This document shows positions 952-32,318 of a DNA stretch of 32,318 bases, one piece after another. Each line of letters starts with the position of its first letter. Within the stretch, counting starts at the first letter, position 1. Origin of the DNA: a virus; the IMG/VR virus record IMGVR_UViG_3300029319_000259, positions 1-32,318 of that record. The stretch is one strand, 5' to 3'. A program made the translations under genes and the position numbers. The notes beneath the pieces were generated by a model. The model made no database searches, was not told the origin of the DNA, and saw only the letters and a list, made by a program, of their open reading frames with translations.

Positions 952-2703
952 TTATATAGTATACACTTTTAATGCTTTCTCTTTGCCTTTTACTTGAATC
1001 TTTCCGTGTGGGGAACATTTGTCCACTTTTTCTGCTGTACGCTCTCCAATAAGTATATCTACTCCATATTTTTTAGTTGCACTTTCTAATCGTGCAGCTA
1101 CATTTACAGCATCTCCTATAGCTGAATAATCAAACCTAGAATCTGAACCCATGTTACCTACTACTGCTTCCCCAGTATTTACACCTATACCTATAGCAAT
1201 AGGTTCAGGTAATTCTTTTTGTAACACACGAATTGCCGTGCGCATGTCTTGAGCACAGGCGACAGCACGTTGTTCATGTTCATCAATCATTAGGGGGGAA
1301 TTGAATATGGCCATACATGCGTCGCCTATAAACTTATCTACCATACCACCATGTGCCTGGATGCATGTAACTTGTACAGTAAGTACTTTATTCATTATAT
1401 CTGTTACTTCTTCAGGCTGTAGCTTTTCGGACAAATTTGTGAACCCTCTGACATCAGTAAACAAAAACGTACAAGTTCTACGCTCGCCTCCTAGCTTAAG
1501 TAAACTAGGGTCTTTTTGTAATCGTGCAACTTGCCTAGGATCCAGGTAGTGTTCAAACTGTTTTTTTATCTGTTGTCTTAATTTATATTGTTCCCCAAAC
1601 CTTAACCAAAATTCTTGTACAGATAAAAGTGTCATACCAACTGCGCTATAACTAAAATCTATAAGTATATTATTTCGTACAAACCATACTGCAGCTATTG
1701 CAACGCTTGTATATAAAACAACCATACCCACCATAGTGCCTGCAACAGGTAAACTACGTATTATAATTATAGTTAATATTAAACACCCTACTAGTATAAG
1801 CAATTCATATAATAGGCTTGCACCCGGTATTTGAGGTACAGTTACTGTTAAACTTTCAGCCATTGCAGCTTGTACTTCATGCGGATACAACAATCCAACT
1901 GGCGTAGCTATTTGAGGCATGATACCTTTTGCACTTACACCAACAAGCACAAACTTATCTTTTACATTCATCTCTTGAAGTGTAGTCCTTGGAGTATCAC
2001 TCCATGTTACCCATCTTCTACCTATTTCATCTACAGGTATTTCTGCATAATTTGGTAAAGTAAGTTCTACAATTTCACCCTCTTGGCCTTTAATAATGTA
2101 TGTATCTGAACTAGAAAGTATTTTCATAACTTCCATACCAAATGCCGGCGTCCAACCATCTGGTGTTTGTAATAACAAAGGCAATCTTCTTACTAATTTA
2201 TCTACATCTGTTCGTGCAACTGCCAAGCCCTGGCTGCTAGCATTTGCAAGTTCAGAAGTATTTTGTATCACACCTTGTGCAGAGATCCCTTGCACGGGAA
2301 TCCCATCACCTAATATAACTGTGCCTGTTGTAGGCGGAAACTCACCATTATCATTTTCAAACATTGCAAGAATACTTGGTGTGCCTGCCAATGCATCAGC
2401 AAAGACTTTATCTCCACCAAATCTATCTTCTTGTGGAAAGGCGATGACCCAACCCACGCCCCAAGCACCTGCTTCTATGAGGTCTAAATGAATTTTAGCA
2501 AGTTCTTGACGAGGGAAAGGCCACCCACCGGACAGAGATAGGTCATTCTCTGTTATATCTAACAGTACAAAGTTATCAGAAGGTTCAGGTATTTGTACGA
2601 GTGCATCAAAAGTTTTTAGTTTAAGTATTTCAAGTGCCTGCCAGTTAAATAACAAAGGCACGCATAGTATTGGTATGCTAAGTAACGAAATCCATTTCTT
2701 CAT
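952..2703 (-). CDS. CHASE2-domain class III adenylate cyclase
   Basis: This 583-residue membrane protein is predicted to make cAMP. Residues 4-20 form an N-terminal membrane anchor. Residues 25-285 form an extracytoplasmic CHASE2 sensor (opening L-K-T-F-D-A-L, later P-F-P-R). Three membrane helices follow at about 296-360, a linker at 365-405, and a class III cyclase domain at 408-583. The catalytic set looks complete: metal-binding D417 (F-T-D-V-R-G-F-T) and D461 (F-I-G-D), base-contact K457, and transition-state N534 and R538. Position 527 is Ser, where bacterial adenylate cyclases often have Thr; the Glu/Cys pair of guanylate cyclases is absent, so ATP is the likelier substrate. The start overlaps the FecR stop as ATGA with GGGG upstream, so the two are coupled. 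Such cyclases are bacterial signalling proteins, often found beside FecR genes. One in a phage late operon is unusual. The ligand is unknown. Confidence 0.93.
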   Translation of the reverse strand: MKKWISLLSIPILCVPLLFNWQALEILKLKTFDALVQIPEPSDNFVLLDITENDLSLSGGWPFPRQELAKIHLDLIEAGAWGVGWVIAFPQEDRFGGDKVFADALAGTPSILAMFENDNGEFPPTTGTVILGDGIPVQGISAQGVIQNTSELANASSQGLAVARTDVDKLVRRLPLLLQTPDGWTPAFGMEVMKILSSSDTYIIKGQEGEIVELTLPNYAEIPVDEIGRRWVTWSDTPRTTLQEMNVKDKFVLVGVSAKGIMPQIATPVGLLYPHEVQAAMAESLTVTVPQIPGASLLYELLILVGCLILTIIIIRSLPVAGTMVGMVVLYTSVAIAAVWFVRNNILIDFSYSAVGMTLLSVQEFWLRFGEQYKLRQQIKKQFEHYLDPRQVARLQKDPSLLKLGGERRTCTFLFTDVRGFTNLSEKLQPEEVTDIMNKVLTVQVTCIQAHGGMVDKFIGDACMAIFNSPLMIDEHEQRAVACAQDMRTAIRVLQKELPEPIAIGIGVNTGEAVVGNMGSDSRFDYSAIGDAVNVAARLESATKKYGVDILIGERTAEKVDKCSPHGKIQVKGKEKALKVYTI

Positions 2704-3884
2704 CCTGACCCCTGTGTGATTGTAATAGTAGAGTTGCCTCCACCGTTTACTACAATCTGTTGGTATTTACCATCCTGTATTAAAATAATAGTGTAACCTT
2801 GAGCACTGTTTACCGTCAACTGTGCGTTTTGATTAACCTTTCTTTGAAATGCAATTTGTTCTCCTTGCAATAAGGTAATTATCTGCGTTTCTAAATCTTG
2901 TCCTATTTCTGTACCCTGTATTGAAGTGCCTACAGTCAATTTTTTAGTATCTAATTCATCTACTTCTTCTATTATTGCTAATAAATCTTCAAAGAAATTT
3001 ACGTCTAAAAAGTTTATATCGAGTTCTGTAAACTCTAAAGTATCTTCAGCTAAATAATCTTGTTCTAGCTCATTAAACTCTAGGTAATCTATATCTAATA
3101 TAGCTCCGCTATCTGCTACGGACGTTGTGGATGAATCTGTGGATAAGTCTTGTTCATCCGGAGGTGTAACAATAAGCATGTTATCTATTACATCTAAAGT
3201 TAAATCAAGTATTACAGGCTTAGTAGGTGCAGTTTCCCATACCTCTACAGTAGTAGCTTGATAGGGTTTATTAAGAGTAACGCTACCTGTTGCGGTAGTT
3301 ACAAGTATTTCACCACTAGATATGCCGTTTTCATCTGGAAGTAATATTATTAAACTGCGGCCCAATTCATCTACCGTGCAAGTAAAATCAGTTCCCCTAA
3401 TCGCTATATCTGCAGTAGGTGTAGACAGTCTAATGTTTTTCTTGTCTATTTTACCTAATCTACTACTTACAAACCTAGCAGTGCCACTTGCAAACTGCAA
3501 AGCCATTTTTCCTTTTGAAGGGTCAGGATCAAATACGTACTCAGTAATAACTAACTTAGAATGTTCTGTTAATCGTACAACAGAATTGTCCAGGAAAGTA
3601 ATCCCTACACGGCCCGTACTAGTACGGACATCATCCATTTGTTGAATGCCAAAGTCTAACTCAGCCCCGTAAGGCTTATCTCGTATTACTTCAGCAGAGC
3701 CGTTTAGCTCAGATATATCTCCAATATTAGCAGCTTGTGCTTGTACCGCCGTCGTTTTGAACAACGCACACAGTACCATTATTGCCACTAGACATAATTT
3801 TGAGCCAGTCTCTAGCCAATGTAGATGATTGCGTAATATTAAAAGTCCTGCTGTTGCCTGTTTGGTCAAGATAGAAATATCCAT
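2700..3884 (-). CDS. FecR-domain periplasmic protein
   Basis: This is a 394-residue exported protein. Residues 30-49 form a hydrophobic signal (L-C-L-V-A-I-M-V-L core, ending A-V-Q-A-Q-A). Residues about 54-215 are a FecR domain (opening I-G-D-I-S-E-L-N-G-S-A-E-V, with a later S-T-P-T-A-D-I-A-I-R-G-T-D-F). A very acidic low-complexity stretch at 240-315 and a beta-rich tail at 340-394 with curlin-like I-T-I-T-Q follow. FecR domains are periplasmic sensing modules. Here no sigma factor or TonB receptor is nearby, so an iron-uptake role is unlikely; partnership with the CHASE2 cyclase directly downstream is the better guess. The ATG at 3884 is chosen because later starts (GTG 3788, ATG 3779) cut into the signal sequence. 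This gives an unusual overlap of about 158 bases with the curlin gene in another frame. A TTG at 3905 is also possible. Confidence 0.85.
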   Translation of the reverse strand: MDISILTKQATAGLLILRNHLHWLETGSKLCLVAIMVLCALFKTTAVQAQAANIGDISELNGSAEVIRDKPYGAELDFGIQQMDDVRTSTGRVGITFLDNSVVRLTEHSKLVITEYVFDPDPSKGKMALQFASGTARFVSSRLGKIDKKNIRLSTPTADIAIRGTDFTCTVDELGRSLIILLPDENGISSGEILVTTATGSVTLNKPYQATTVEVWETAPTKPVILDLTLDVIDNMLIVTPPDEQDLSTDSSTTSVADSGAILDIDYLEFNELEQDYLAEDTLEFTELDINFLDVNFFEDLLAIIEEVDELDTKKLTVGTSIQGTEIGQDLETQIITLLQGEQIAFQRKVNQNAQLTVNSAQGYTIILIQDGKYQQIVVNGGGNSTITITQGSG

Positions 3885-4425
3885 TTTGATATCCACTTCC
3901 GTCAAATGTTATTGAGTTAGAGTCCCCGTCAACATCTACATAAGATGTTCCTAGGTCGTAATCAATGTCAAAATCAAATGTATTGCTATCTCCATTGATT
4001 ATCCAGTCTAAGTCAAGTGTCGAAGCTAAAGCATTAGTACCAACGTTTAGATTAAAGTCGTTACTAGAACCAGTTACGTCTACATTGTAGTTACCTGAAT
4101 CTGCACCGTAAGTATTAGTTGGGTCTACTTGTATATCAAATGTATTGCTATCTCCATCAAATTCAAAAAATCCTGTAATGCTATCTCCATAAATATCACC
4201 TAAGAATTTGTTTGAGCTACCTATTTGATTTATATCTAAAGTAAGATTTAAACCGTCAAGATCGAGCGCGGTCATAGTACCACTAACAGCGTTTAGTCCA
4301 CCAATGATGTTAGACGAACCTAACTGTTCTATATCTATGTTTGCGTTATTCCCGGACTGGTCGACATACACTTCATTATCAGCATACAAAAAACCAACTA
4401 ACAGTAAGGGTAAAAGTTTTTTCAT
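3727..4425 (-). CDS. Curlin-repeat-like secreted protein
   Basis: This 232-residue protein begins with a signal peptide (M-K-K-L-L-P-L-L-L-V-G-F-L-Y-A, cut after A15). The mature part is built of repeats in which a beta strand leads into D/Q-x-G-x-S-N, as at residues 22-27, 33-39, 66-72, 89-94, 116-122, 143-148, 165-170 and 187-191. This resembles the curlin repeat (Q-x-G-x-x-N) of CsgA/CsgB, but in most units Gln is replaced by Asp, Asn or Thr and the spacing is longer. It is rich in Asp, Asn, Gly and Ser, and ends with a distinctive tail holding two cysteines (residues 220 and 232). Its ATG overlaps the csgG stop (ATGA) with GGAG seven bases upstream. Position beside csgF and csgG makes it the likely exported substrate. 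Whether it forms amyloid, and whether it plays the CsgA or CsgB role, is not shown by sequence. Confidence 0.82.
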   Translation of the reverse strand: MKKLLPLLLVGFLYADNEVYVDQSGNNANIDIEQLGSSNIIGGLNAVSGTMTALDLDGLNLTLDINQIGSSNKFLGDIYGDSITGFFEFDGDSNTFDIQVDPTNTYGADSGNYNVDVTGSSNDFNLNVGTNALASTLDLDWIINGDSNTFDFDIDYDLGTSYVDVDGDSNSITFDGSGYQNGYFYLDQTGNSRTFNITQSSTLARDWLKIMSSGNNGTVCVVQNDGGTSTSC

Positions 4426-5234
4426 TTATAACTCCAATATCCAGCTTGTTCACCCTCCTTGATTATTTCTAATACGGCTGTTTCTATGGCAGAACGCAAA
4501 GCAAGTCCTCCAGACTCATTTCGCACCACACCACTTTCTATCTCCACTAATTCAGTACCAGCTTCGATAAAACGAAACACGTCGTCTGTTAATGATACAC
4601 TAAGAATGGTCTTAGATACTAATTTTTCAAGTAACACTTGACCCGAGTTTACAGACACAAGACGCAATTGTATTGTTATTGAGTCTGTCCTGTAAGCCTT
4701 AGATATACCAATCCCTAAATATCTAGCACCTGCGCCACCAGATGTTACATTAGATTCATATGAAACTACTGACCCTTCTAGTAATAAACCTGCAAATAAC
4801 AAAGTACCTATCTTTGTATTGTCTTTGTTTTCAGTCCTACCACTACGTATTATCTGGCGTTCTTTAGTTAAGTTATCTAGTCCACCTCTTTCTACTACAG
4901 TAAAGAAACCACCATTTTGTTTACATGCGTCTTTAAGAGCTTTAATAAGATAGGCACTAGGTTGTTGGGTTATAGCTGTAGAGAAGCTAGCATACATAGA
5001 ATTGCTAAGTCTTTGGCCTGTCTGGTCAGTAAATGCATTTCCGTACACAGCCACAGTTGGTTTTCTTTCAGGCGTACGGCACTCCTGCAAGTCTGTTATG
5101 ACTAGTTCTTCTATCTGTGCTGATTCGATTTTCCGTATCGGAGTTATGTTATTTTCTATGGGGTCAAATAATAGTGACGCGCAACTAGAAAGTAAAAGAA
5201 CCGATAGGTACCGTAATTTCTGTAGTATTGCCAT
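4422..5234 (-). CDS. csgG: CsgG, outer-membrane curli secretion pore
   Basis: This 270-residue lipoprotein matches CsgG along nearly its whole length (E. coli CsgG has 277). The lipobox is L-S-S-C with acylated C18. Conserved blocks include F-T-D-Q-T-G-Q (68-74), F-S-T-A-I (84-88), L-I-K-A-L-K-D-A (96-103), V-V-E-R-G-G-L-D-N-L (113-122), E-G-S-V-V-S-Y-E-S-N-V (153-163), S-G-G-A-G-A-R-Y (165-172), S-K-T-I-L-S (207-212) and R-F-I-E (221-224). CsgG forms a nonameric outer-membrane channel that exports unfolded curlin. F84 aligns with the constriction Phe56 of E. coli, while the Tyr51 and Asn55 positions appear to be Ser in both cases. The gene starts inside the end of csgF (50-base overlap) and is coupled to the curlin gene. 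The Shine-Dalgarno is weak. The family assignment is firm; what a phage exports through it is inference. Confidence 0.95.
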   Translation of the reverse strand: MAILQKLRYLSVLLLSSCASLLFDPIENNITPIRKIESAQIEELVITDLQECRTPERKPTVAVYGNAFTDQTGQRLSNSMYASFSTAITQQPSAYLIKALKDACKQNGGFFTVVERGGLDNLTKERQIIRSGRTENKDNTKIGTLLFAGLLLEGSVVSYESNVTSGGAGARYLGIGISKAYRTDSITIQLRLVSVNSGQVLLEKLVSKTILSVSLTDDVFRFIEAGTELVEIESGVVRNESGGLALRSAIETAVLEIIKEGEQAGYWSYK

Positions 5235-5679
5235 CTGGGTCTGTTATCTTTAGGGTTATCATTGTACCATCTTCACTTACGCTGTATTCAATAGTGTTGC
5301 CCATTAGTTCGATAATACCTTGTGTTTGAGGAGTATCTCCAAACAAAGCATCTACAAGTTGTCTTGATAGCTGTGCATATATTCTAGACTCTAAGTTACG
5401 TATAAACCTAGCAAGTGTAGTATTTTCTGCATCTCTTTTAAGTTGTTCTTTATAAGCTTTTAGTTCTGCTTTAATATTTTCTTTACGGTTAAACTCTTGG
5501 TTTTCAATTGTAAGATAATGTGAACTAGTGCCTACTCCACTAAAACTAGGGTTTTTAAAACCGTGTACTATCTGATCTGCCCACAAAGGATTAGTTAAAA
5601 GCAAAAGAAAAAAGAAAACACAGAGAAACCCTGCAATTCTATATATCCAAATATTGTCGTCAATCTTTTCTTTGGTCAT
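5185..5679 (-). CDS. csgF: CsgF-like curli assembly factor
   Basis: This 164-residue protein has a long hydrophobic signal region (about residues 14-34, cut near P-L-W-A) and then the CsgF hallmark F-K-N-P-S-F-S-G at 41-48, the segment that in E. coli CsgF plugs into the CsgG barrel. Further conserved features are F-I-R-N-L-E-S-R-I in the helical middle and a C-terminal beta domain with T-I-E-Y, I-T-L-K-I-T-D and T-T-E-I-T-V. CsgF narrows the CsgG pore and links secretion to fibre nucleation at the cell surface. The start is taken as ATG 5679, preceded by GGATAGAG; a TTG at 5697 would add six residues. It overlaps both the upstream membrane-protein gene (20 bases) and csgG (50 bases), so the block is translated as a unit. 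Confidence 0.9.
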   Translation of the reverse strand: MTKEKIDDNIWIYRIAGFLCVFFFLLLLTNPLWADQIVHGFKNPSFSGVGTSSHYLTIENQEFNRKENIKAELKAYKEQLKRDAENTTLARFIRNLESRIYAQLSRQLVDALFGDTPQTQGIIELMGNTIEYSVSEDGTMITLKITDPDGNTTEITVPIGSFTF

Positions 5680-6010
5680 CTCTATCCGCCTTAGCAATTT
5701 TGTTGCTATCTATAAGTTGAGGTACTCCTAGTATAGTCTTTATAAGCGTATCTTGTCTAATAATCTCATTATCCAGACTACGTATTCTATCTATTAAAGC
5801 CACTAAAATACTGTGTTGTGAATCAAGTTTAGTGCCTAGTCTTTCTTCTAACGCTGATATTTGTCCTTCTACTTTTTCATCTACAGTGTCTAATTTGGTT
5901 TCCATACCGTCAACAATACGCATTATTAATTTATATATAAACCAACCTAAACCTAGTGCAGCTGCTATAGGAAACCCAACTTCTTGTATTACGGTAACTG
6001 CTGCTTCCAT
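5660..6010 (-). CDS. Holin-like membrane/coiled-coil protein
   Basis: This is a 116-residue protein with one N-terminal membrane helix (about residues 10-32, rich in Ala, Gly, Leu and Ile), followed by basic residues and a coiled coil (about 35-95, heptads of Val, Leu and Ile between Glu, Asp and Lys). The C-terminal end is charged. The layout recalls small phage holins of the BhlA type or other lysis accessory proteins. The basic residues right after the helix suggest the coiled coil stays in the cytoplasm, which argues against an inner-membrane spanin. It starts inside the stop of the 3TM holin-like gene (TGATG) and its own end overlaps csgF, tying the lysis genes to the curli block. No specific family is certain. 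Confidence 0.6.
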   Translation of the reverse strand: MEAAVTVIQEVGFPIAAALGLGWFIYKLIMRIVDGMETKLDTVDEKVEGQISALEERLGTKLDSQHSILVALIDRIRSLDNEIIRQDTLIKTILGVPQLIDSNKIAKADRDDQRKD

Positions 6011-6480
6011 CAGTCACTCTTATTGGAGGCTCCGAAATAAAATGATATTACTGCAGAAGCTAGGCCACCAAGGTAACCTAATACTAAATTAATCAGAGCC
6101 TCACTGTTCTGTTCTGGTGGTTGGAGAGTTACGAGAAAGATATAACCAAGAAAACCACCAACCATGGCTATACCTATAATTCTAGCTGTCCAGTCTTTGC
6201 TAAACATACCACGAGCATGTTGTTTTTCTGCTGTTTCTAATTTATACAAATCAACATCAAGCTCTTTCATTTTAGCTTCAAACTCTTTTTCTGCTTTTTT
6301 AATTTCAATTAACTGTTCAGGTGTAGCACTTGCTAATGCTTGTTCTATGGACTTAGGATTGTTTTCTACTCCTAATACTTTTGATATGACATCTCCTGCC
6401 ATACCACCAAAGGGTCCACCTAATGCAGTTCCTAATGTTGGAGCGACTGCTCCTACTATATTACCCAGTAACTTCTTCAT
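6010..6480 (-). CDS. 3TM holin-like protein
   Basis: This is a 156-residue protein. It has a glycine-rich amphipathic N terminus (about residues 5-35), a charged helical middle (about 45-95) and two clear membrane helices near the C terminus (about 100-119 and 129-149, the latter V-L-G-Y-L-G-G-L-A-S-A-V-I-S-F-Y-F-G). This matches the 'holin of 3TMs' family found in phages and gene transfer agents, whose presumed job is to permeabilise the inner membrane so that the endolysin reaches the cell wall. The start is set at ATG 6480 with GGA just upstream. A TTG at 6489, which has AAGGAGG about 12 bases ahead, is an alternative. It overlaps the end of the thermonuclease gene by 20 bases. Confidence 0.75.
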   Translation of the reverse strand: MKKLLGNIVGAVAPTLGTALGGPFGGMAGDVISKVLGVENNPKSIEQALASATPEQLIEIKKAEKEFEAKMKELDVDLYKLETAEKQHARGMFSKDWTARIIGIAMVGGFLGYIFLVTLQPPEQNSEALINLVLGYLGGLASAVISFYFGASNKSD

Positions 6481-6883
6481 ATTTTCCAAGCTTTAATAGC
6501 TCCTCCTTGTTTGCTAAATGCTGTGCTTCTATGTCATCTTTGCTTTGACCTGTGTATGCAACAGCAAGATAATTATCAATAAGCGCTTGGTTTAGATCTA
6601 CGCCATCTGCGATAATGACGCCTAGAACTCTACCGAACTTCCCTTTCTTGTCTAGTTTTGTTTGTATTTTTAAATTATCAGCATGCAAGATAGCATCTGA
6701 TAGAAATTTACCAGCTAGTTTACCTCTAGCTTTTTCGTCTAAATCACGTGTTCGTGACTCTGGCGTGTCAATTCCGTATAACCTGACACGGGATGTATAA
6801 GAGATATCAAACCCTAAATCTATTATGGCATCGACAGTATCTCCGTCTACCACTCTGGTTACTTCGCATCTGTATTCGTACAT
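6461..6883 (-). CDS. Thermonuclease (SNase-fold nuclease)
   Basis: This is a 140-residue staphylococcal-nuclease homologue without a signal peptide. The opening V-V-D-G-D-T places the calcium-ligand aspartates at D13 and D15. The loop R-L-Y-G-I-D-T-P-E-S supplies R34, D39 and E42, and K-F-G-R-V-L-G supplies R85. These correspond to the catalytic Arg35, Asp40, Glu43 and Arg87 of the S. aureus enzyme, so it should be an active calcium-dependent nuclease. Marine podophages often carry such genes, and breakdown of host DNA is the usual suggestion. The start overlaps the stop of the small basic protein gene (TAATG). Confidence 0.9.
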   Translation of the reverse strand: MYEYRCEVTRVVDGDTVDAIIDLGFDISYTSRVRLYGIDTPESRTRDLDEKARGKLAGKFLSDAILHADNLKIQTKLDKKGKFGRVLGVIIADGVDLNQALIDNYLAVAYTGQSKDDIEAQHLANKEELLKLGKYEEVTG

Positions 6884-11362: not shown

Positions 11363-11818
11363 TCATTTTCCAGTGTTAAGAACTGATTTTTGTAGTTCTA
11401 CGCTCCTTCTGCCTACTTGTTTGTACCACCTACTATTTTCCATTTCAGCAGCCATTTTGTCCCAATCATGGGCCCTGCAAGCTCCTAACATATTTTTAAA
11501 CTTAGAAAGCCTCGTGCCGCCTAAATTAAAACACATGTTTACCAACACGTGTTGTATGTTTTCAGGTAAGTTATAAAATGCTTCTTCAGTACCAAATATG
11601 TGCACCGCTTCTGCTAAATGCTTGTTAAAGTCATCTTCATAGTACATATCAACAACATCTTGTGATACTTTTGTGCCAACTTTCCATTTGTATTCTGGAT
11701 CTTCTGGCTTACAAAGATGTCCTATGCCAAGCGTTTTAAACCCTAAACTATCTTCGTATATCTCTAAAACTTCACCCTCGTGTCGTTTTATCTCAGCCTT
11801 ACACTTTTCAATATCCAT
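11363..11818 (-). CDS. T4-type lysozyme (GH24 endolysin)
   Basis: This is a 151-residue muramidase that cuts the glycan strands of peptidoglycan. The catalytic triad of the family is visible: E14 in K-R-H-E-G, D23 in Y-E-D-S-L-G, and T29 in K-T-L-G-I-G-H. Further matches are V-L-V-N-M-C-F-N-L-G-G and S-R-W-Y-K-Q-V-G-R-R. There is no signal peptide or anchor, so it should depend on a holin for release. The holin candidates lie at 12.1 kb on one side and at 5.7-6.5 kb on the other. The gene sits among tail genes, so a role as a virion-borne lysozyme cannot be excluded, but lysis is more likely. Confidence 0.93.
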   Translation of the reverse strand: MDIEKCKAEIKRHEGEVLEIYEDSLGFKTLGIGHLCKPEDPEYKWKVGTKVSQDVVDMYYEDDFNKHLAEAVHIFGTEEAFYNLPENIQHVLVNMCFNLGGTRLSKFKNMLGACRAHDWDKMAAEMENSRWYKQVGRRSVELQKSVLNTGK

Positions 11819-12271: not shown

Positions 12272-13789
12272 TTACTTCTCTAAAGCCTCTATTCTTGATT
12301 TTAAATCTTCTATAATTGTTTGTTGTTCTTGTATAGCTTTAACTAAATAAGGTGTTAATTTTCCGTAATCAACGCCCCAAACTTCTTCACTAATATCATC
12401 TCCACCTTTTTGAACCACGCTAGGAATTACAGCGTGTAATTCTTGAGCAATCATACCAACTTCGTGATATCCATTTACTTTCCAATCAAATTCTCTTACT
12501 TTTATATTTTTTATTGTATCTAATTGAGAGGAAGCATCGACAATATTTTCTTTTAATCTTTCATCAGAAGATACACCGTAACTAACTTGAGTTCCATTTG
12601 CACAGGTCACTTGACCCATTATGCTATTACCATCTCTATAACGTGTAAAAACACCACCTGTAGCATCATCATCTTCAGTAAACCAAAGAACTTGAATTAC
12701 ATTTCCTGAACCAACAGAAACATCAGTATCACCAAAAAATACAATGCCACCGTGCCCTGATGCTTCACCACCAGCGGCAACTTGTAATTTACCATAAGTA
12801 AGCGAACTGGAAGTTTTGTTTATTAATAATCTTCCTGCAGAATCAATTATCATTTTTTGAGCCGCATTCGTCTGAATTCTTATACCACCAGAACCAACAC
12901 CCGTACCGTTATTGATAATCAAGTCGCCAACACTTCCATTAGCCTCAGCGTAAATCTTTGAACTCATTGCACTAGAATCACCAGGACTTAACCAAAGACC
13001 ACCACCAGCAGAACCATTTACAACAAGTGTACCTATATTAGTGCCTAGAGACCTGTCTGTTGTGCTTCCAACACCTACGCAACCTGAAGCATGAATACGC
13101 ATCCTTTCTGCACCACCAGCTCTAAAGTATTGAAAGTCTGAACTATTATCATAAAGGACACCACCTTGGTCATCAGCAGAAGTATCTCCAAAAACAAAAC
13201 CTGCTATGTTGCTTGTACCAGAAACAATTGAACCTATGGCGTTATCACCTGAAACTTCTACATCTAAAATTCTTGAAGGACTAGTCGTACCAATTCCAAC
13301 TTTACCTGAAGAATCAATACGCATTTTTTCTGAATCATTGACATAAAAAGCGTGATCAGCACTTGATGGTACATGATATTCTAGTAAGCCACTTGATACA
13401 CCAAAACCATAAACATTTGATGAAGTATCCTCAAAAACTTTTAATTTAGTTTTAGCATTACTTCCTGCTGAATTTGCAAAGGTACTACCTAAATTTAATT
13501 CAATAGGTGTAGCTGTTGAAGAACCTGCTGCTACAGTACCAACAATTAAGTTTGTACCATCAAAAGTAAATGTTGATTCTCCTTCTAAAGTATTTGAAGT
13601 ACCACTACCAGTTATGACTCTATTATCAGCATTGTTATTAATAGTTGTTCCTGAAACTGTTGCAAAAGACAATGTACCTGATCCATCTGTCTTTAAAAAT
13701 TGACCTGCTGATCCATCTGACACGTTAAGCTGAGTTATACCTACAGCGTTGTCTGCTATTACGTTAGTTGTGATTTTAGTATTTGCCAT
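12272..13789 (-). CDS. Tail fibre with S74 self-cleaving chaperone (third in series)
   Basis: This is a 505-residue fibre. The N terminus (N-T-K-I-T-T-N-V-I-A-D-N-A-V) is a phage-fibre attachment motif, followed by Gly/Ser/Thr-rich beta segments including M-R-I-D-S-S-G-K-V-G-I-G-T-T-S-P. The last 98 residues are an intramolecular chaperone of the peptidase S74 family: S408-D-E-R-L-K413, then F-D-W-K and G-M-I-A-Q-E-L, and a C-terminal trimeric coiled coil. In this family the chaperone folds the trimer and is cut off just before the catalytic Ser with help of the Lys, leaving a mature fibre of about 407 residues. AGGG precedes the ATG. The chaperone is a close relative of that in the upstream gene. 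Confidence 0.88.
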   Translation of the reverse strand: MANTKITTNVIADNAVGITQLNVSDGSAGQFLKTDGSGTLSFATVSGTTINNNADNRVITGSGTSNTLEGESTFTFDGTNLIVGTVAAGSSTATPIELNLGSTFANSAGSNAKTKLKVFEDTSSNVYGFGVSSGLLEYHVPSSADHAFYVNDSEKMRIDSSGKVGIGTTSPSRILDVEVSGDNAIGSIVSGTSNIAGFVFGDTSADDQGGVLYDNSSDFQYFRAGGAERMRIHASGCVGVGSTTDRSLGTNIGTLVVNGSAGGGLWLSPGDSSAMSSKIYAEANGSVGDLIINNGTGVGSGGIRIQTNAAQKMIIDSAGRLLINKTSSSLTYGKLQVAAGGEASGHGGIVFFGDTDVSVGSGNVIQVLWFTEDDDATGGVFTRYRDGNSIMGQVTCANGTQVSYGVSSDERLKENIVDASSQLDTIKNIKVREFDWKVNGYHEVGMIAQELHAVIPSVVQKGGDDISEEVWGVDYGKLTPYLVKAIQEQQTIIEDLKSRIEALEK

Positions 13790-13790
13790 A

Positions 13791-15311
13791 TTACCCTTCT
13801 AATGTTTTTACTCTTGCTTCAAGTGCGGTTATTTTATCATTTGCTTCTTGTAATGCTTTAGTAAGTACAGCTATATATCCACCTGTCATACCACCTGTAA
13901 GACCTTTTGTTTTATCTTTATCTTCATCAGTAGCTACATATTCAGGTAAAACACTTTCAACTTCTTGTGCTACAAAACCAGCTTTAGTATGTTCTCCATT
14001 TGCTTTCCAATCAAAAGATACTGGATTTAATGCTAATATTTTATCTAATGACCCTGTAATTGGTTTTATATTTTCTTTTAATCTTTCATCTGATGTTGCA
14101 ACAAACGCAACATTTCCAGTACCATTTGCTGCGATAGCACCCATGTTTGTACCAAAATTACTAGCATAGAAATATATGTATCTATTAGCATTTGTTGTAG
14201 TTGTTGTTGCTTTTGACAAACTAATAACACCACAATTATCGTTACTTGATGTATTTCTAATATCTATAACACCACTACCTGCACCAGTAGCACTACCTGC
14301 TATAGATACTTTGTTATCACTTTGTAATGCAGAAGTTGTACCTACTAACAATTGTTGTGAAGCATTTACACGCAAGGCTTCAGTTCCACCAGTAATAATT
14401 TGTACTGTATCACCTGTAGGTCTTGTTATACCTGTATCGGTATCATTATTAAAAGAAAAAGTTGGAGTTGATACTCCTAAAGAAGTTGCTTGAATTTGAC
14501 CTCCTACAGACATATCAATTCTTAATCCTTCAACACTAGAACCACCGTCATCTCCTGCGAATACTATATCTTTATCTTGTGTTGGATTGTTAAAGTAAAA
14601 GTCACCACTTGATACATAAGTTTTACCAAATGTTGTACCTGAAGATAAAAAATGTATTTCAGCATTACCAGCATCAAGTGATACTGTACTAGAATTTTTG
14701 ACTGCTCCTCCAATATATAAATCTTTAAATCTAGCATCTGAGGCACCAATATCCATGTGATTGTCTCTTGCTGCATTTGCTGCAGTTATGTTGAAGAATT
14801 TTGTACCCCCTGAATGAATTCTAATTCCACCATTAGAACCATTTAAAAATCCTGCACTAGCATCAAAAGATGTTGCAGTAACACCTGCATTAAAAGTAGC
14901 TGCACCTGCTTCTGACATATCAAAGGTAACAGCAGTTATCTCTGAGCCACCATCTGTTCCTCTTATAAATAAATCAGCATTATTGACTAAACTTTTGATT
15001 TCTAAATCAGTTCCTTGCATGTCAATTTGACCAACATTTGTGCCACCTGTTGCAAAAATAATTTGTTGACCTGCTGCATCAAGTACAATATCTCCACCAA
15101 CATCAAGCGTTAAATCGCTTGTAGCACTTATTTGAGAAAAGGTTGGTGTAGATCCTACAGTCTCTATTAGATCAGACAATAGAGCTTTCTTCAGAGCATT
15201 GTCCGTGGCATCAAAGATAAGCATAGAATCAGCCCCAACAGCCGTTACCTGAGTTTGTCCAGATATTACTGAAGGATCTAAATATTCGCCATGTATCTTT
15301 GTTTTAGCCAT
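13791..15311 (-). CDS. Tail fibre with S74 self-cleaving chaperone (second in series)
   Basis: This is a 506-residue fibre. It opens with K-T-K-I-H-G-E-Y-L-D-P-S-V-I, then beta-rich repeats such as L-T-L-D-V-G-G-D-I-V-L-D-A and D-K-D-I-V-F-A-G-D-D-G-G, and ends in a 100-residue S74 domain with S407-D-E-R-L-K412, F-D-W-K-A-N-G and G-F-V-A-Q-E-V, plus a terminal coiled coil. The D-K-D-I-V/L-F-K/A-G-N/D-D-G-G block is shared with the 948-residue fibre upstream, so the two have exchanged or duplicated segments. It overlaps that gene's stop by one base (TAATG). Confidence 0.88.
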   Translation of the reverse strand: MAKTKIHGEYLDPSVISGQTQVTAVGADSMLIFDATDNALKKALLSDLIETVGSTPTFSQISATSDLTLDVGGDIVLDAAGQQIIFATGGTNVGQIDMQGTDLEIKSLVNNADLFIRGTDGGSEITAVTFDMSEAGAATFNAGVTATSFDASAGFLNGSNGGIRIHSGGTKFFNITAANAARDNHMDIGASDARFKDLYIGGAVKNSSTVSLDAGNAEIHFLSSGTTFGKTYVSSGDFYFNNPTQDKDIVFAGDDGGSSVEGLRIDMSVGGQIQATSLGVSTPTFSFNNDTDTGITRPTGDTVQIITGGTEALRVNASQQLLVGTTSALQSDNKVSIAGSATGAGSGVIDIRNTSSNDNCGVISLSKATTTTTNANRYIYFYASNFGTNMGAIAANGTGNVAFVATSDERLKENIKPITGSLDKILALNPVSFDWKANGEHTKAGFVAQEVESVLPEYVATDEDKDKTKGLTGGMTGGYIAVLTKALQEANDKITALEARVKTLEG

Positions 15312-18157
15312 TATTTACTCTCCAACTCTGCTACTTTTGCTTCTAGCTCTTGTATCGCTTTAACTAATACAGGCACGAGTTTTTCATATTTCATGCTATA
15401 AGTTTTACCATCAGGAGATAAAGCGTAAGTTAAATTAGTTTTATTAGTTCTGTTGTAACCTGCTGACTTTTCTAATTTTTCTACATCTTGAGCTTTAAAA
15501 CCAATGTCTAATTGGGCTTCTTTATGTGTTCCATCATGTGTAACTGTAAGTAAATCTGTGTCCGGGTTTTTATCCCAGTCTACATAACTTGACCTTTTAT
15601 CCCATTTAAACGTATAAGGTTTAAGGCTCTTTACAAAATCTAATCCTAAATCTAATGCTGTAAAATCAGTTTTATCTCTTTCATCTGATGCTACAGATAA
15701 AGAAACCTGACAATTAAGAGAAGTAATAGCAGTATCCCCTATACAAGCTATATTACTTTGTGAAGTAATTTGTCCTCCTGGTTGACCCGCATTACCTGCT
15801 CTATAGCCAATACCTATATTATTAGCTCCTGTTGTAACATTTTTAATAGTATTAGTACCTAAAGACACATTAAAAGACCCCGTAGTACAGTCCTCTAAAG
15901 CATCAACACCTATAGCAGTATTGTAGCCATTACCTGTTGTTGCACTTGTTCCTGCACGAGTTCCTATAAAAGTGTTATTGTGAGCTGAAGTTATTGCATC
16001 CCCCGCCTGACTACCTACTATCGTATTTGATCCACCTGATGTAATATTGTACCCTGCGTTTCTCCCTATACAGGTGTTGTGGTCATTGCCTGACATACTA
16101 TTACCAGCACCATAACCCACGCAAGTATTCCAGCCTCCCGATGTGTTGGTTGACAAAGCATAATTTCCAACTGCGACATTGTAATCCCCTGTGGTGATAT
16201 TCATACCAGCTCTATATCCTATTCCAGTATTGTGAATTCCGTCTGTCACATCTTCTAATGCTTCATATCCTACCGCTACGTTAGAATCTCCACTAGTTAA
16301 ATTATTTAATGCTCCGTAACCTATAGATGTATTACCTGCTGAATCTGTTATATCTGCTGAAGTTGCTTTGATTTCTCCATTTACATGAAGTTTTTGTGAA
16401 GGCGAAGTTGTACCAATTCCAACATTACCAGAACTCGTAATTCGCACTCTTTCTGATCCACCAGTAAAAAATCTTTGATTTCCACTATCTTTTTGATCAT
16501 AAATTACATCAGAACTATCCATATAGATTTGAGTACCATCTCCTGATCCTACTCCAGTAGTGCTATTTGCAAGTTTAATTCTTGGATTACTTGCATTATA
16601 GACCTGTAAACCACCTCCCGATGGAAAAGCTACAGATGTATTACCTATAGAAACATTACCTGAATTGTCTAGAACCATAGCTCCACTTGTACCAGCAACA
16701 TTAAAATACATGTGATCAAGGCTATGATAATAAATAACTGCACCTCTAGCTCTTGTAGTATCAGAAAAATATATAGCACCTGCATCGCCTGTTGGTGTTC
16801 TAAAATCAATACCTGCTGAACTGTTGTTTTCAATAATTACTAAATCACCACCATCAGCACTATAAGAAGAACCTGATGCAGCTTTTTTAATGTGCAATAT
16901 GTTTTCAGGTGAAGTTTCTCCTATACCAACTTTATTATTAAAGTAAGCACTTCCTGCATCTGACATATCAAGGGTAAGAGCAGTTATACCAGAACCACCA
17001 TCATTTCCTTTGAATAATATATCTTTATCTTGTACTCCAGCTTCCATCACAAAATCACTAGAGCTATTGTTAAATTTGCCTATTTCAGTTCCAGCATCTT
17101 TAAAACTTATTTCACCACCATCAGAATCAAGATTAATACCACCTGCTACATCTACCGTCAAATCACCACTGGCTTTTACTAAATTGCCACCTATGTTTAT
17201 GTGACTAGAAGTTTTTACTTCCCCAACAATATCTACGGGCACGGTTGGTGAAGCAGTTCCTAGGCCTACACGAGAGTTAGCGTTATCTACTACAAAGGTA
17301 GGAGAGTCGAACGCAACGTCGTGAGATCCTACGGTTAGGGTGCCGGGCATAGTAATGTTGCCCGAAAGCTTTGCACTTGTTATGGTGCCGTCACTTGGTG
17401 TACCTATGTTTACTGGGTTTATTACATAAACAGTAACAGTTCTACCTGATACAACACCCGTGTCTAATGTAAGGGTGTTAGAACTAATTGTGTACGCAGC
17501 TTGGTTTTGAAATACACCATCTATAAATACTAGAAGGTTACTTTCTGCTGCTGGAGAGTCAGACAGAGTAAAAGCTGTTTGGTTAGAAGTAGCTGTAAAA
17601 GTGTCTACGGTAAGGTTAGAAGACTGTAGATTAATAAGATTATCGACTATTACTTCTATTTTCGTGCCGTTTACTGGAGCTGCATCAAAAGTTAGTGTGC
17701 TACCACTAAAACTAAAAGTGTCGTGATGTTGCATAACACCATCAAGAAAGACCATAGCATTAGCTTCTACGCCGGGATTTATACCTATATCATATGCAGT
17801 TGCGCTAGAAGCCGCTGTAGCGTTGTAAACAGTTTGGTTGGCTGATTTAGATGCAATGTTCTCTTGTATGTCTGTGAGAAGCGCTGCAGTCGTTCTTAGC
17901 TGTACTGTAGAGCCATTAGCAAAGGTTCTTGCTGTAGTATTGTCTTGTGCACGAACTACAGTCCATGTGGTGCCTGAAACAGCAGTAATCTTAACTATTT
18001 CGTTATTGCTACCATCGTCTATCGTGGCGTAGAAATACTCTCCTGCACCTACGGTAGGGAATGTGCTACTGCTAGTAACGGATATGCTGGTAGCACTTGT
18101 ACTAGTTATAGCCGCTGCTAGAGTAGTTTCGGCATTGTTTGTAAAAACTACGCCCAT
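15311..18157 (-). CDS. Large tail fibre with YadA-like repeats and S74 chaperone (first in series)
   Basis: This is a 948-residue fibre. The N-terminal region (about 1-270) is Thr/Ser-rich with paired repeats (F-L-D-G-V-M-Q-H and F-I-D-G-V-F-Q-N). A fibre body with V-G-I-G-T-T-S-P-S-Q-K-L-H follows. Residues about 605-785 hold around nine YadA-head-like repeats of N-x-x-I/V-G-x-x-A-G/L-x-x-x-T-x-G, expected to form a trimeric left-handed beta roll. The last 125 residues are a more distant S74 chaperone, S824-D-E-R-D-K829, with Y-T-F-K-W and G-F-K-A-Q-D-V. GGAG lies eight bases before the ATG. It is likely the main fibre, with the two following genes as further fibres or branches. Confidence 0.88.
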   Translation of the reverse strand: MGVVFTNNAETTLAAAITSTSATSISVTSSSTFPTVGAGEYFYATIDDGSNNEIVKITAVSGTTWTVVRAQDNTTARTFANGSTVQLRTTAALLTDIQENIASKSANQTVYNATAASSATAYDIGINPGVEANAMVFLDGVMQHHDTFSFSGSTLTFDAAPVNGTKIEVIVDNLINLQSSNLTVDTFTATSNQTAFTLSDSPAAESNLLVFIDGVFQNQAAYTISSNTLTLDTGVVSGRTVTVYVINPVNIGTPSDGTITSAKLSGNITMPGTLTVGSHDVAFDSPTFVVDNANSRVGLGTASPTVPVDIVGEVKTSSHINIGGNLVKASGDLTVDVAGGINLDSDGGEISFKDAGTEIGKFNNSSSDFVMEAGVQDKDILFKGNDGGSGITALTLDMSDAGSAYFNNKVGIGETSPENILHIKKAASGSSYSADGGDLVIIENNSSAGIDFRTPTGDAGAIYFSDTTRARGAVIYYHSLDHMYFNVAGTSGAMVLDNSGNVSIGNTSVAFPSGGGLQVYNASNPRIKLANSTTGVGSGDGTQIYMDSSDVIYDQKDSGNQRFFTGGSERVRITSSGNVGIGTTSPSQKLHVNGEIKATSADITDSAGNTSIGYGALNNLTSGDSNVAVGYEALEDVTDGIHNTGIGYRAGMNITTGDYNVAVGNYALSTNTSGGWNTCVGYGAGNSMSGNDHNTCIGRNAGYNITSGGSNTIVGSQAGDAITSAHNNTFIGTRAGTSATTGNGYNTAIGVDALEDCTTGSFNVSLGTNTIKNVTTGANNIGIGYRAGNAGQPGGQITSQSNIACIGDTAITSLNCQVSLSVASDERDKTDFTALDLGLDFVKSLKPYTFKWDKRSSYVDWDKNPDTDLLTVTHDGTHKEAQLDIGFKAQDVEKLEKSAGYNRTNKTNLTYALSPDGKTYSMKYEKLVPVLVKAIQELEAKVAELESK
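15795..16345 (-). repeat. YadA-head-like tandem coding repeat
   Basis: This is a stretch of imperfect coding repeats within the large fibre gene, each about 20-24 codons, with the pattern N-T/V-x-x-G-x-x-A-G. The units differ at most bases, so the array is old and kept by protein structure rather than by recent duplication. Edges are approximate. Confidence 0.7.
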
Positions 18158-20003: not shown

Positions 20004-23000
20004 CTATAAATTATTGTAAACAGGAGCTAAGTCTTTTACTTTTAACTGTCCTGTAAATAAATCATACCCTTTTTCTACGGTTGGTCCAAGTGGGCCCACC
20101 CACATAGGGTCTCCATATCTTTTATCTTCCATAAACAAAGGAAGCGCTAAAGTAAAAGGTCCAAGTACTCCAGATCTATCTAAAATCTCTGTGCTATATT
20201 CGCCCCAGTCCATTTCTTGAGACCTTCTATAATTTTTATCTTCTGGACTTATTCCCGGTAACAACCAAGCTAAACCAACTTTAAACCTTTCACGTAAATC
20301 AAAACCTAACATAGTTAAAGGTAATAAAGTTGCAGCGCCTAAAAACAAAGGCACAGCTGCGCCTTTTAATCCTGCTTCTGTATATCTAGCTTGCATTTCA
20401 TTTATAGAACCACCTACGATAGTTTTACCGTAAGCGTAAAAGAAAGACTTAAGTTGCCATACTAGAGCAAATCTAGGGTCAGAAGCCCAAATAGGTCTTT
20501 CTGCTGCGTTTGGTCTAACAATAGATTCATCTACAAACCTAGCTAATGCTAATTGTATTTTTTCATTACCTGCTTGTTTTACGTCTCCTCCTCCCCAAGC
20601 TATAACATCATCTGCTGTTACACCTAATTCTTTTAAATATCTTATAGCTCTTTTATCACCTTTTTTTGCTTTTTCAGCATTATCTAATAAGAAAGCTTTA
20701 CCCATGCCTGCTGCAAAGATTCTAGTAAACCTAGTAAATTGTTCTAGTCCTATGGCCCTAAAGAATTGATTAGTAAACTTTTTAGTTTTTTCGTTTGTGT
20801 ATTCTAATTCTCCTGCACCTACAAAAGTTTCCATCATTGCATCAATACCTACTACTCCTATATCTTTAGCTAATTTTGCTGCTTCATTTGGATCTTTTAT
20901 CATGTTAAAAATAGTTCTAGTTGCAGTACGCAAAGCCCCAAAGTCTTTAGACCTAAGTATAGGACCTGCTAAATCTGGGAAAGAAGCAAAAGTAGCAAAT
21001 GTTAAAAGAGTAGTTACATTAAAAGCTAAACCTATTTGATTAGCGCCTCTAAACAAACCACTAGATATTGGTGTTATTTTACCTAACATAGCCATTACAG
21101 CTTTTTCAGCTTGCGCTCTTTGTTTAGGGTTTTCTATTTGACTAAGCAACTCAGCAATTCTTTCTGGTCCCCCTCTTTTGTTTAGTTCTACCCTTTTTAC
21201 CGTGTTGTCAATATACTTTTGTAAAGCTCTATGTGGGTCTTCTAATAGCTCTGCATCTCTTAAACGTTTAGTAGGTACATTTTTATAAAGAGCTGCTCTA
21301 GATTTTATTAAACCTATATTATATTTAGCACCATCACTATCTATTTCTATTTCATTAGATATATCTGCAATTGTAGCCTCTACTGCTTCATTAGCTTCTT
21401 GTTCGGTTAAATCAGTATCTCTAATTGTACCGTCTGCGTTTTTATCTCCTTTTTTGTTAAATTCCATAAGTAAGTCTACTAATTCTTGTTTCTTTTCAGG
21501 GTTGCCTGCTACTTCTTCTATAAGTAAAGAACGTGGGAAGAAGTTAGAAAGTTTACTTATACCTATTTTTTCTAAACCTAATGAATCGTAATGTTCTGTT
21601 AACCACTCTCTAATTCTTGCAGCTTGTGGCCCTAGTTGCTCTGTAGGTATAGTATTATCTTCAGCTTGTAAAAGAATATCCATTTTTTCTTGCGTCATTT
21701 CACCAGTCTTACGCACCCCTAGGATGTCTTGTATTTCAGTCATTTTACCCCTAGCAATAGTAGTAGCTGCAGTAAGGAACCCTATAGCTTCTGTACTTTG
21801 AGGTTGTCCTCTAAACATTTGTGCAAGTTTTATACCTGCTGGGCCAAAGCCCCTAAGCAAATCATCCTTTGCAAATAAAACCTGTTTAAGAAATGCCCCT
21901 ACGCCAAGAGGTTCTCCTGAATCTATTAATGTGTCTATTGTTTGTTTTATTTTTCTTGGAGCATTAGGATCGTTAAGAGGTATTTCATCTCCTAGTTTTT
22001 CTAAGGTTTCTTGTATTTCTGCAGCTGCTAAATACTTTGTCATAAAATGACCAGGGTCAGTATTTATTCTTTTTAGTTCTACTACATAGTCAGCAAAAGC
22101 AGGATTAACTCCATATCTTCTGTTAGCAAAATTACTAAACTCTTTTACAAAAGCTTTTATTTTATTTGATAAACGTTTAAAGAAAGAATCTGTTTGATTT
22201 TGTGCTTTTTTAGTTTCATCAAGTAAATAAGAACCCACTTGATCAGACATCCATTCTTTAAAACCTTGTTCATCATTTGTATATTGAGCAGTGTCATTAG
22301 TCTTTCTTTCTTCGTTAAATGCATCTAATAAACCTTGTCTTAAAGCAGGCACATTTAAACTAAATTCTAATTCTTGGTTTACAAAAGAATGACCTATTTC
22401 ATGGGCTACAGTAAAAGCTCTAGCCCCTTGGGCGCCTTCACTTAAACCTTCTCTGGTTTGTACAAGAATAACGTCAAAATTTGCCCCTTTTAAATTCATT
22501 CCTCGTGTAGAACTTTCTGGACCCATTTTGGCAAGGGCTCTTTGTACTCTATTAGCTAAATCAACATCACCGTCTAAAACTTCGGCTGTAATGTTTTCTG
22601 TAGTGCTAAATATTCTGTAAGGTTTTTTTAAACCTAATTTAGTATTTGCAATACGTTGAAAGTCTTTAAGAAAAGTAGCATTTAAATGTTGTTCAACCAC
22701 GCTAGAAAAGAATACTCCAGGTTTGGGGCCACCTGTTTTAGTTGAATCTCCTTTTGCATAAGGGTTTTTAAATATTCTTCTATTAAACTCATCTTCTGCT
22801 CTTTGATCTGCAGTAGGTTGTTCAGACCCTAGTTCTTGGTCTTGTTCTTTTAAAGATTCTAGTTCATTTTCAAGTCTTGCAAGTTTTTCATCCATTTTAG
22901 CTAAAACAGATTCTTGGGTAACAGCTTCTCCAGTATCGCTAGTAAATGGTGTGATTGGATTTTTTTGTCTTTCTTCTATTTTAGCTTTTTGGTCTCTTAT

Positions 23001-28173: not shown

Positions 28174-28174
28174 G

Positions 28175-28729
28175 TTATATACCAAATATGGCGCCTATAA
28201 CAGCGCCTCCTAAACCAATCATATTAGAACTATGTTGAGCTTTTGCATTTTTGTATGCTGCTGCTCTTTGCGCTGCCATAGCTGAAGCATCACCTAAACC
28301 ACTTAAAGAAGTTTGATTTATACCTTGTCCAATACCTATCAACTCATTTAAAGTTGCATCGTTTATTTGTCGTTGTTGAATCCTAGCGTTATTTAAAGAA
28401 TTAGTAAGTCCTAATTGACCACCTAACTGCAAGTTTCTTTGTTGTTGTTGTCTTTGGGCGTTTGATAAACCAGCTCCACCGTACCGTTCTATGTTCCTTT
28501 GTTGTACTTGTTGCGCTATTTGATTTTGTCTAATTTGATCTTCTCTTGCTTTATCTATTAAAGAAGTATCTTCTGTAGCTTTTAACAACCTTTCTTCAAA
28601 AGCTCTAAAATTATCTACATAGTCCATGTAGTCTTGTCGAGTTATTTGAGCAAAAGTATCTTCCGGATTTGCAACCGAAGGTAACGTGCTTACGTAGTCT
28701 GTGCCTCTATGTCCTCTAGTATGTGGCAT
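28175..28729 (-). CDS. Small internal virion protein, gp14-like
   Basis: This 184-residue protein has a Gln/Arg/Asn-rich helical middle (Q-Q-V-Q-Q-R-N-I-E-R, R-Q-Q-Q-Q-R-N) and a hydrophobic Gly/Ala/Ile-rich C-terminal segment (M-I-G-L-G-G-A-V-I-G-A-I-F-G-I). Glutamine-rich helices plus a short membrane-active end are usual for podophage core proteins such as T7 gp14, which inserts into the outer membrane upon ejection. The assignment rests on composition and gene order. Its start overlaps the upstream stop by one base. Confidence 0.6.
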   Translation of the reverse strand: MPHTRGHRGTDYVSTLPSVANPEDTFAQITRQDYMDYVDNFRAFEERLLKATEDTSLIDKAREDQIRQNQIAQQVQQRNIERYGGAGLSNAQRQQQQRNLQLGGQLGLTNSLNNARIQQRQINDATLNELIGIGQGINQTSLSGLGDASAMAAQRAAAYKNAKAQHSSNMIGLGGAVIGAIFGI

Positions 28730-31538: not shown

Positions 31539-32318
31539 TTAATATGCGACATCTAATCTAATTACACCAAAGTCTTCAACTTGACCTGTGTGGTCAGAGT
31601 TATACTTAGGCTTCTTAAGACCAAATATTTTACCAATTGATATACCATTTTGGTTTCCATAGTCAAATGTATCTTCAACTATTTCAGGGATACCAATGTC
31701 AGCCATCGCTAATGCTTGAGCTCCGCAGAATAAACATGCAGAACCGTTAACGTCAGCGTTAGCACCCCATTTGTATCCAGCAGCACCAGCATTTGATGAT
31801 GTACCACTTGTAGCACCTTGAGTGTTAAACACATGTCTAAACTCATGTACCATGATTCCATCAACCATTAAGCTTGATGAACCAGAGAATAAGCTAGACT
31901 GAGGTCCTCTGATACCAGCTTGTCTTACGTTAGCAAGGAAGTCTGAATCGAGTTTTAAATCAGCCATAACTTGTGGTGTTACGAAAAGATGATATGTCTC
32001 GTCGTTACCCGCACCTCTTAGACCTCTGATGTATTGATCTTTAGCATAAGCTTTTAAATCAACAATAGCGCTATAGCTTAGTTTGTCAGCTGCAGCAACT
32101 GCAGTAACATCACCAGCTACAATACCATTTGTAGCATCAAATCTTCTATGTCTATTTGAGGTAGGAGCAGTTACGTCAGATGAGAACGCAAGGTCACCAA
32201 GGTTCTGTCCAGAGTTTTGAACAGGTCTTAATGCACCATTGTTCTTAAGTGTGTAAGCAATACCACTTAGAGTTAAGAATGCTAATTGGTCCATTCTGTC
32301 AGCCATTGCGTAAGCAAG
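31539..32318 (-). CDS. Major capsid protein, N4 gp56/DUF4043-like (5' end missing)
   Basis: This is the C-terminal 259 residues of a capsid protein; the frame is open to the window edge (L-A-Y-A-M-A-D-R), so the start lies outside and the ATG at 32306 is internal. Typical marks are D-R-M-D-Q-L-A-F near the front, Y-H-L-F-V-T-P-Q-V-M-A-D-L-K, D-F-L-A-N-V-R-Q-A-G, a turn I-M-V-H-E-F-R-H-V-F, and D-I-G-I-P-E-I-V-E-D-T-F-D-Y-G-N near the end. This matches the N4 gp56-type HK97-fold capsid family (DUF4043), which full-length is normally some 350-400 residues. It heads the leftward structural train and is followed by a strong hairpin. Confidence 0.85.
   Translation of the reverse strand, partial: LAYAMADRMDQLAFLTLSGIAYTLKNNGALRPVQNSGQNLGDLAFSSDVTAPTSNRHRRFDATNGIVAGDVTAVAAADKLSYSAIVDLKAYAKDQYIRGLRGAGNDETYHLFVTPQVMADLKLDSDFLANVRQAGIRGPQSSLFSGSSSLMVDGIMVHEFRHVFNTQGATSGTSSNAGAAGYKWGANADVNGSACLFCGAQALAMADIGIPEIVEDTFDYGNQNGISIGKIFGLKKPKYNSDHTGQVEDFGVIRLDVAY

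Follow-up and report, generated by a model that had tools for sequence, protein, structure and literature searches.

A six-gene curli-type secretion module at the lysis end of a marine phage late operon

Why should a virus of marine bacteria carry the genes of a curli secretion system together with that of an adenylate cyclase? The question is raised by IMG/VR record IMGVR_UViG_3300029319_000259, a 32.3-kb record of a marine virus infecting bacteria, of which positions 1 to 32,318, here called the window, were analyzed as a whole. A sequence-only reading had recognized in it genes for CsgF, CsgG, a curlin-repeat protein, a FecR-domain protein and a CHASE2-adenylate cyclase, and had held the full set to be undescribed in a podovirus-like phage. 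This last claim did not stand. Wittmers et al. 2022 (PMC9599517) report a CsgF-CsgG-CsgA/B-FecR-(CsgA/B)-adenylate cyclase module in myophages as well as in HTVC023P-type podoviruses, and describe its transfer across families, ocean-wide occurrence and expression in marine metatranscriptomes. A phage type VIII secretion system module with FecR and cyclase is therefore already known; what we add is a third virus backbone, a correction of its annotation and a strong association with a holin. We consider it probable that the locus is a late-expressed, mobile six-gene type VIII (curli) secretion module that exports a surface fibre from the lysis end of the late operon.

Content, order and conservation of the module

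The module and the virion genes of the window lie on the − strand, in an order that begins with the major capsid protein (31539-32318), continues with head-tail and tail-fibre proteins and an internal virion protein, and passes a nuclease and a putative holin before it reaches five overlapping open reading frames (ORFs; 952-5697) (Table 1). All five are present, intact and overlapping within 952-5679. They close a late operon of podovirus type at its distal (lysis) end, where the sequence-only reading had placed them. Their proposed identities were likewise borne out by Pfam, less clearly so for the curlin protein, whose assignment draws on its relatives and structural model. CsgG matched the Pfam CsgG family with an E-value of 1.2e-49, its profile matched solved structures of E. 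coli CsgG from end to end (E 5e-66), and the Cys of its lipobox, LLSSC, is invariant. CsgF (Pfam CsgF, E 2.4e-15) shows after its signal peptide the N-terminal motif FKNPSFSG, which is conserved in the alignment to myophage CsgF. Judged by these matches, the phage module has both the CsgG pore and the CsgF of the type VIII secretion (curli) system.

For the curlin protein the picture is more graded. Repeated GxSN motifs are visible in its sequence, and Curlin_rpt was matched by 22 of its 32 relatives (best E 4.7e-4) and by the window protein itself with E 0.0067, under the curated Pfam cut-off. The AlphaFold model is beta-rich and confident (pLDDT 81.6), and its best structural matches in BFVD were viral models named "Curlin associated" (E 3e-7, TM score 0.74). 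A bacterial curlin-repeat profile scored the protein just above its shuffles (3% of which were as high), and no meaningful match was obtained in the PDB.

The FecR domain was recognized in the window protein (Pfam E 1.6e-11) and in 31/31 relatives. The protein has a signal-peptide-like N terminus ending in ...TTAVQAQA and a conserved glycine/glutamine-rich C-terminal tail; besides 3905, an in-frame GTG or ATG near 3779-3790 is a possible start, and the AlphaFold model reached a pLDDT of 42. The cyclase gave Pfam matches to CHASE2 (3.5e-30) and Guanylate_cyc (4e-22), and its nearest solved relatives are adenylate cyclases. Both metal-binding Asp residues, the ATP-selecting Lys and the transition-state Arg are conserved in all 39 relatives and the transition-state Asn in 38 of them; with the Thr/Ser/Asp that accompanies the substrate Lys, the protein has the complete residue set of a class III adenylate cyclase.

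Directly upstream of csgF lies a sixth gene, here called cc116, which the sequence-only reading had taken for a holin outside a five-gene set. Its product has one N-terminal transmembrane helix followed by a coiled coil. The gene precedes csgF in every locus that reaches upstream of csgF, and the module thus comprises six genes, cc116 included. Elsewhere it occurs in one or two copies; in a tblastn search 6 of 50,697 phage records matched, all of them HTVC008M or Melnitz, which each carry two copies immediately upstream of csgF. According to PMC9599517, the published module is preceded by one or two histidine kinases, and position and copy number suggest that cc116 is the gene so named. No kinase domain was found in 39 members of the family scanned (~80-116 aa), nor was the kinase ATPase domain HATPase_c in any of 13 records, complete HTVC008M and Melnitz included. 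At the level of domain scans, a kinase at this position is not supported; a transmembrane/coiled-coil protein stands there instead. Only weak YvrJ and coiled-coil matches were obtained when cc116 was considered as a known holin or kinase family, and the assignment was rejected. In a positive-inside analysis the Lys and Arg residues after the helix made the protein lean to an N-out, C-in orientation, the net charges being equal.

The sequence-only reading had proposed to look for co-occurrence of the families in this order, and had named a chimeric assembly with a bacterial contig as a possible source of error. CsgG relatives are carried by 60 IMG/VR loci, and the order was counted over 62 loci (L002-L063), made up of the IMG/VR loci with HTVC008M and Melnitz. 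The complete series cc116-CsgF-CsgG-curlin-FecR-(curlin)-cyclase was present in 47 of these in identical order, while the other 15 held a contiguous part cut by the contig end; the order was broken in none. Recurrence of both module and flanks rules out chance as well as a chimera. Pairwise dN/dS ratios (non-synonymous to synonymous substitution) against eight relatives were 0.02-0.31 for all six genes, ratios that are rough since several synonymous distances are near saturation, and they indicate purifying selection on the whole module. For the curlin gene they were 0.06-0.19; the putative substrate gene is therefore maintained and not only the pore, which argues against a role of the pore alone.

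Two further observations concern the spread of the module. Locus L033 (6917-10469) is a mosaic, with the two-copy cc type of other backbones ahead of a window-type CsgF-to-cyclase block, which suggests recombination within the module. A scan of genome contigs with CsgG reached no more than six of them, and each had the phage-type gene set. Such phage-module contigs, L094 (PBPT01000002.1), L095/L096, L097 and L098, lie in metagenome-assembled genomes (MAGs) labelled Neomarinimicrobiota, Maricaulis, Rhodobacteraceae and Flavobacteriaceae; in L094 the module is part of a 60.8-kb contig of window-type gene order, and the Rhodobacteraceae bin holds four CsgF loci of the phage type. Contigs of this kind in MAGs of unrelated organisms are likely misbinned phages, and they could mislead surveys of bacterial curli. 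A CsgG gene is also present in OR851715.1, which bears the name Salmonella phage S.Kent 1-2-1; this record of 1.5 kb is probably host DNA.

Virus backbones and linkage to a holin

The module of the window resembles that of HTVC023P-type podoviruses (PMC9599517) in gene order, in having no CsgE and in a podovirus genome of ~60 kb, but differs in having a single transmembrane/coiled-coil gene, with no kinase domain, at the "histidine kinase" position. The virion genes differ as well. By tblastn the window capsid protein is nearest to Pseudomonas phages KPP25/phiR18 and Aeromonas phage phiA008 (48%), while HTVC023P, which was in the collection, was not matched. Comparison of the window proteins gave one weak tail-fibre match to HTVC023P and none within the compared part of 023Pt_psg01 (its first 50 of 60 kb). 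The terminase of a near relative, G001, is 52% identical to that of phiA008 and 41% to that of phiR18. GroES, which PMC9599517 counts among the core genes of HTVC023P-type phages, was absent from eight window-type records (47-64 kb) and present in G012 and G013; terminase, capsid and GroES of G013 match HTVC023P at 50-59%. Between G001 (window-type) and G013 (HTVC023P-type), the CsgF-to-cyclase proteins are 54-66% identical vs. 33% for the terminase, the similarity lying mainly within the module. By sequence relationship, capsid, portal and terminase place the phage with Kochitakasuvirus-type phages and not with HTVC023P, i.e., on a third backbone. As the module is found in window-type, HTVC023P-type and myophage genomes, at least three backbones carry it.

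CsgG and CsgF have been described in pelagimyophages (PMC7029224) and in Melnitz (PMC9004378). The resemblance to myophages of SAR11 and OM43 bacteria, noted from the sequence, was confirmed: HTVC008M (SAR11) and Melnitz (OM43) carry each of the six gene families, arranged as in the window, with identities to the window of 35-43% for CsgG, CsgF, FecR and cyclase in HTVC008M. They differ in their two cc copies, in the absence of a window-type holin beside the module and, for Melnitz, in a second curlin gene.

In window-type phages the neighbour of the module is a putative holin, for which the PF11351 match was weak (0.054) and one relative carries a holin annotation. Of 78 newly fetched loci 75 were readable, and in 70 of these it lay directly beside the module, in two arrangements: before cc116 in 27 loci and after the cyclase in 43. 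The putative holin is a linked neighbour and not part of the cassette core. This linkage speaks for the proposal made for Melnitz (PMC9004378), that the CsgG-CsgF pore is repurposed to permeabilize the outer membrane during lysis, together with holin and lysozyme. Several relatives have a lysozyme directly ahead of holin and module, in one contiguous block; the layout of cc116, a transmembrane segment and a coiled coil, is like that of a small holin, and the CsgE gate is missing. On the other hand, no complete locus lacks curlin, FecR or cyclase, all three are under purifying selection, and a bare pore needs none of them. Myophages maintain the module without a holin neighbour, and the linkage count itself is biased, as the scan, baited with the 159-aa putative holin, kept the 80 best matches and so returned near relatives of one lineage. 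We give the lysis pore a limited chance of being correct.

A different content of the same slot was observed in two relatives that have no curli module, L190 (1377-4798) and L229 (7850-10994). Directly after the holin they encode a protein of phrog_20531, exported and with Asn/Thr repeats (343-362 aa), together with a secreted protein of 667-713 aa, possibly an alternative surface module. In L190 the slot follows lysozyme-holin, and a 117-aa transmembrane/coiled-coil protein comes after the secreted proteins.

Table 1. Features of the module and its lysis-related neighbours in the window
Feature	Position	Strand	Basis
CHASE2-domain class III adenylate cyclase, 583 aa	952..2703	−	Pfam, catalytic residues, nearest solved relatives
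FecR-domain protein, exported	2700..3905	−	Pfam FecR, relatives; start codon uncertain
Curlin-repeat secreted protein (putative CsgA/B-like fibre subunit), 232 aa	3727..4425	−	GxSN motifs, Curlin_rpt in relatives, model
CsgG outer-membrane lipoprotein pore subunit, 270 aa	4422..5234	−	Pfam, profile match to CsgG structures
CsgF	5185..5679 (longest ORF to 5697)	−	Pfam CsgF, alignment to myophage CsgF
cc116, sixth module gene, 116 aa	5660..6010	−	tblastn, position, domain scan
Putative holin, phrog_1544, 159 aa, two C-terminal transmembrane segments	6010..6489	−	Weak PF11351, neighbourhood
Phage lysozyme (endolysin)	11363..11818	−	PF00959 3.8e-10

Around these features, a small HNH endonuclease gene (724-951) adjoins the cassette end in most window-type relatives reaching that far. 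Three tandem tail-fibre genes (12272-18157) vary among relatives, and two of them (12272-13789 and 13791-15311) matched the same tail-fibre families via their C termini. The window also encodes two very large proteins, of 1908 and 829 aa (20004-28185), which have weak or no family matches and differ strongly between relatives. An Rfam scan of the window gave no matches, and a scan for promoters and terminators performed no better than on shuffles.

Export, signalling and possible benefit

In the reading that we prefer, CsgG would form an outer-membrane pore late in infection, with CsgF capping it, and the curlin-repeat protein, perhaps also the exported FecR-domain protein, would pass through and form fibres, either on the infected cell or on its remains. 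The CHASE2 cyclase may make cyclic AMP (cAMP) upon a change in the state of the envelope, plausibly reporting on FecR or on fibre export, with cc116 acting as an inner-membrane partner and not as a histidine kinase. The likely benefit would be that neighbouring cells or progeny are held together or that competing phages are blocked. For this reading speak the fixed gene order, the purifying selection on all six genes, the CsgG and CsgF matches, the curlin model, the intact cyclase residues, the occurrence on several backbones and the place of the overlapping genes behind virion and holin genes of the same strand, as does the published expression of the module in metatranscriptomes (PMC9599517). 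The roles suggested from the sequence alone, i.e., a lysis pore, a surface amyloid or reprogramming by cAMP, are not new, having essentially been proposed in PMC7029224, PMC9004378 and PMC9599517.

Several points weigh against surface display of a fibre. The curlin repeats are degenerate. CsgE, the periplasmic gate (PF10627), was found in 0/13 records, with a positive E. coli control, and not in the published phage modules either. Melnitz cultures showed no clumping (PMC9004378). The receptor side of the cAMP signal is also thin: a cyclic-nucleotide-binding (cNMP-binding, cAMP-receptor) domain was found in none of 13 phage records and in only two of 60 genomes of Pelagibacteraceae, a family that may not be that of the host. 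One of these two, a MAG, includes a contig with the phage module as well. Should the host be SAR11, the apparently active cyclase would make a product without its usual receptor, which we keep as a lead. Compared with the curli systems of bacteria (csg of E. coli and alphaproteobacterial csgF-csgG-curlin loci), the phage module shares the CsgG and CsgF families and, probably, a curlin-type substrate but differs in the missing CsgE. A midpoint-rooted tree separates the viral CsgGs, as a single group, from five alphaproteobacterial sequences (support 100/99).

The open pore has also been considered as an importer that supplies phage replication with nutrients, cofactors or iron compounds (PMC7029224, PMC9599517), with FecR as an iron regulator. 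The missing CsgE gate and the name of the FecR domain are compatible with this proposal. Known FecR proteins of the FecIRA type are transmembrane anti-sigma regulators with a cytoplasmic N-terminal domain, whereas in the relatives no cytoplasmic domain lies ahead of the signal-peptide-like segment, and no gene for a FecI-type sigma factor or FecA-type receptor was found among the window proteins scanned. As the protein looks exported and has no cytoplasmic anti-sigma part, the iron-regulator reading is unsupported. In addition, with the position at the lysis end, expression would probably come too late for import to be of great use, and the curlin gene is left unexplained; we regard import as very improbable. 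As to the FecR tail, YTIILIQDG...NGGGNSTITITQ, it has a curlin-like look, and against the curlin profile it ranked first of 83 profile windows, with a probability of only 5.6%. The bacterial repeat profile did not separate the window tail from shuffles (26% as high), and the tail had no PDB match. It was not accepted as a curlin repeat and is kept as a lead.

A further possibility is that FecR and the CHASE2 cyclase act as envelope sensors that raise cAMP and so reprogramme the host, the curli parts serving as sensor input. The intact catalytic residues agree with this, and a FecR-domain gene lies nearby in 4 of the 30 top alphaproteobacterial CHASE2-cyclase loci, so that the envelope-sensor idea of the sequence-only reading appears compatible with bacterial neighbourhoods. 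However, cNMP-binding receptors are absent from the 13 phage records and nearly so from Pelagibacteraceae, and neither FecR nor cyclase, nor cc116, was found within ~9 kb on each side of five alphaproteobacterial csgFG loci. A module that serves mainly for signalling seems quite improbable to us.

Fibre export, our preferred reading, can be extended to a broader and more speculative scheme, which we hold to be unlikely. Holin, cc116, pore, fibre, FecR and cyclase would act jointly at the time of lysis and release the progeny in, or tethered to, an amyloid-like matrix. With another secreted-protein module in the holin slot of curli-less relatives, a phage-built extracellular matrix might then be a general strategy of marine phages, on at least three backbones.

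Among the accessory modules that abundant ocean viruses carry, phage-borne curli systems are some of the stranger ones. The six-gene unit, the unsupported kinase, the third backbone and the tie to holin and lysozyme narrow the hypotheses on what this module does.

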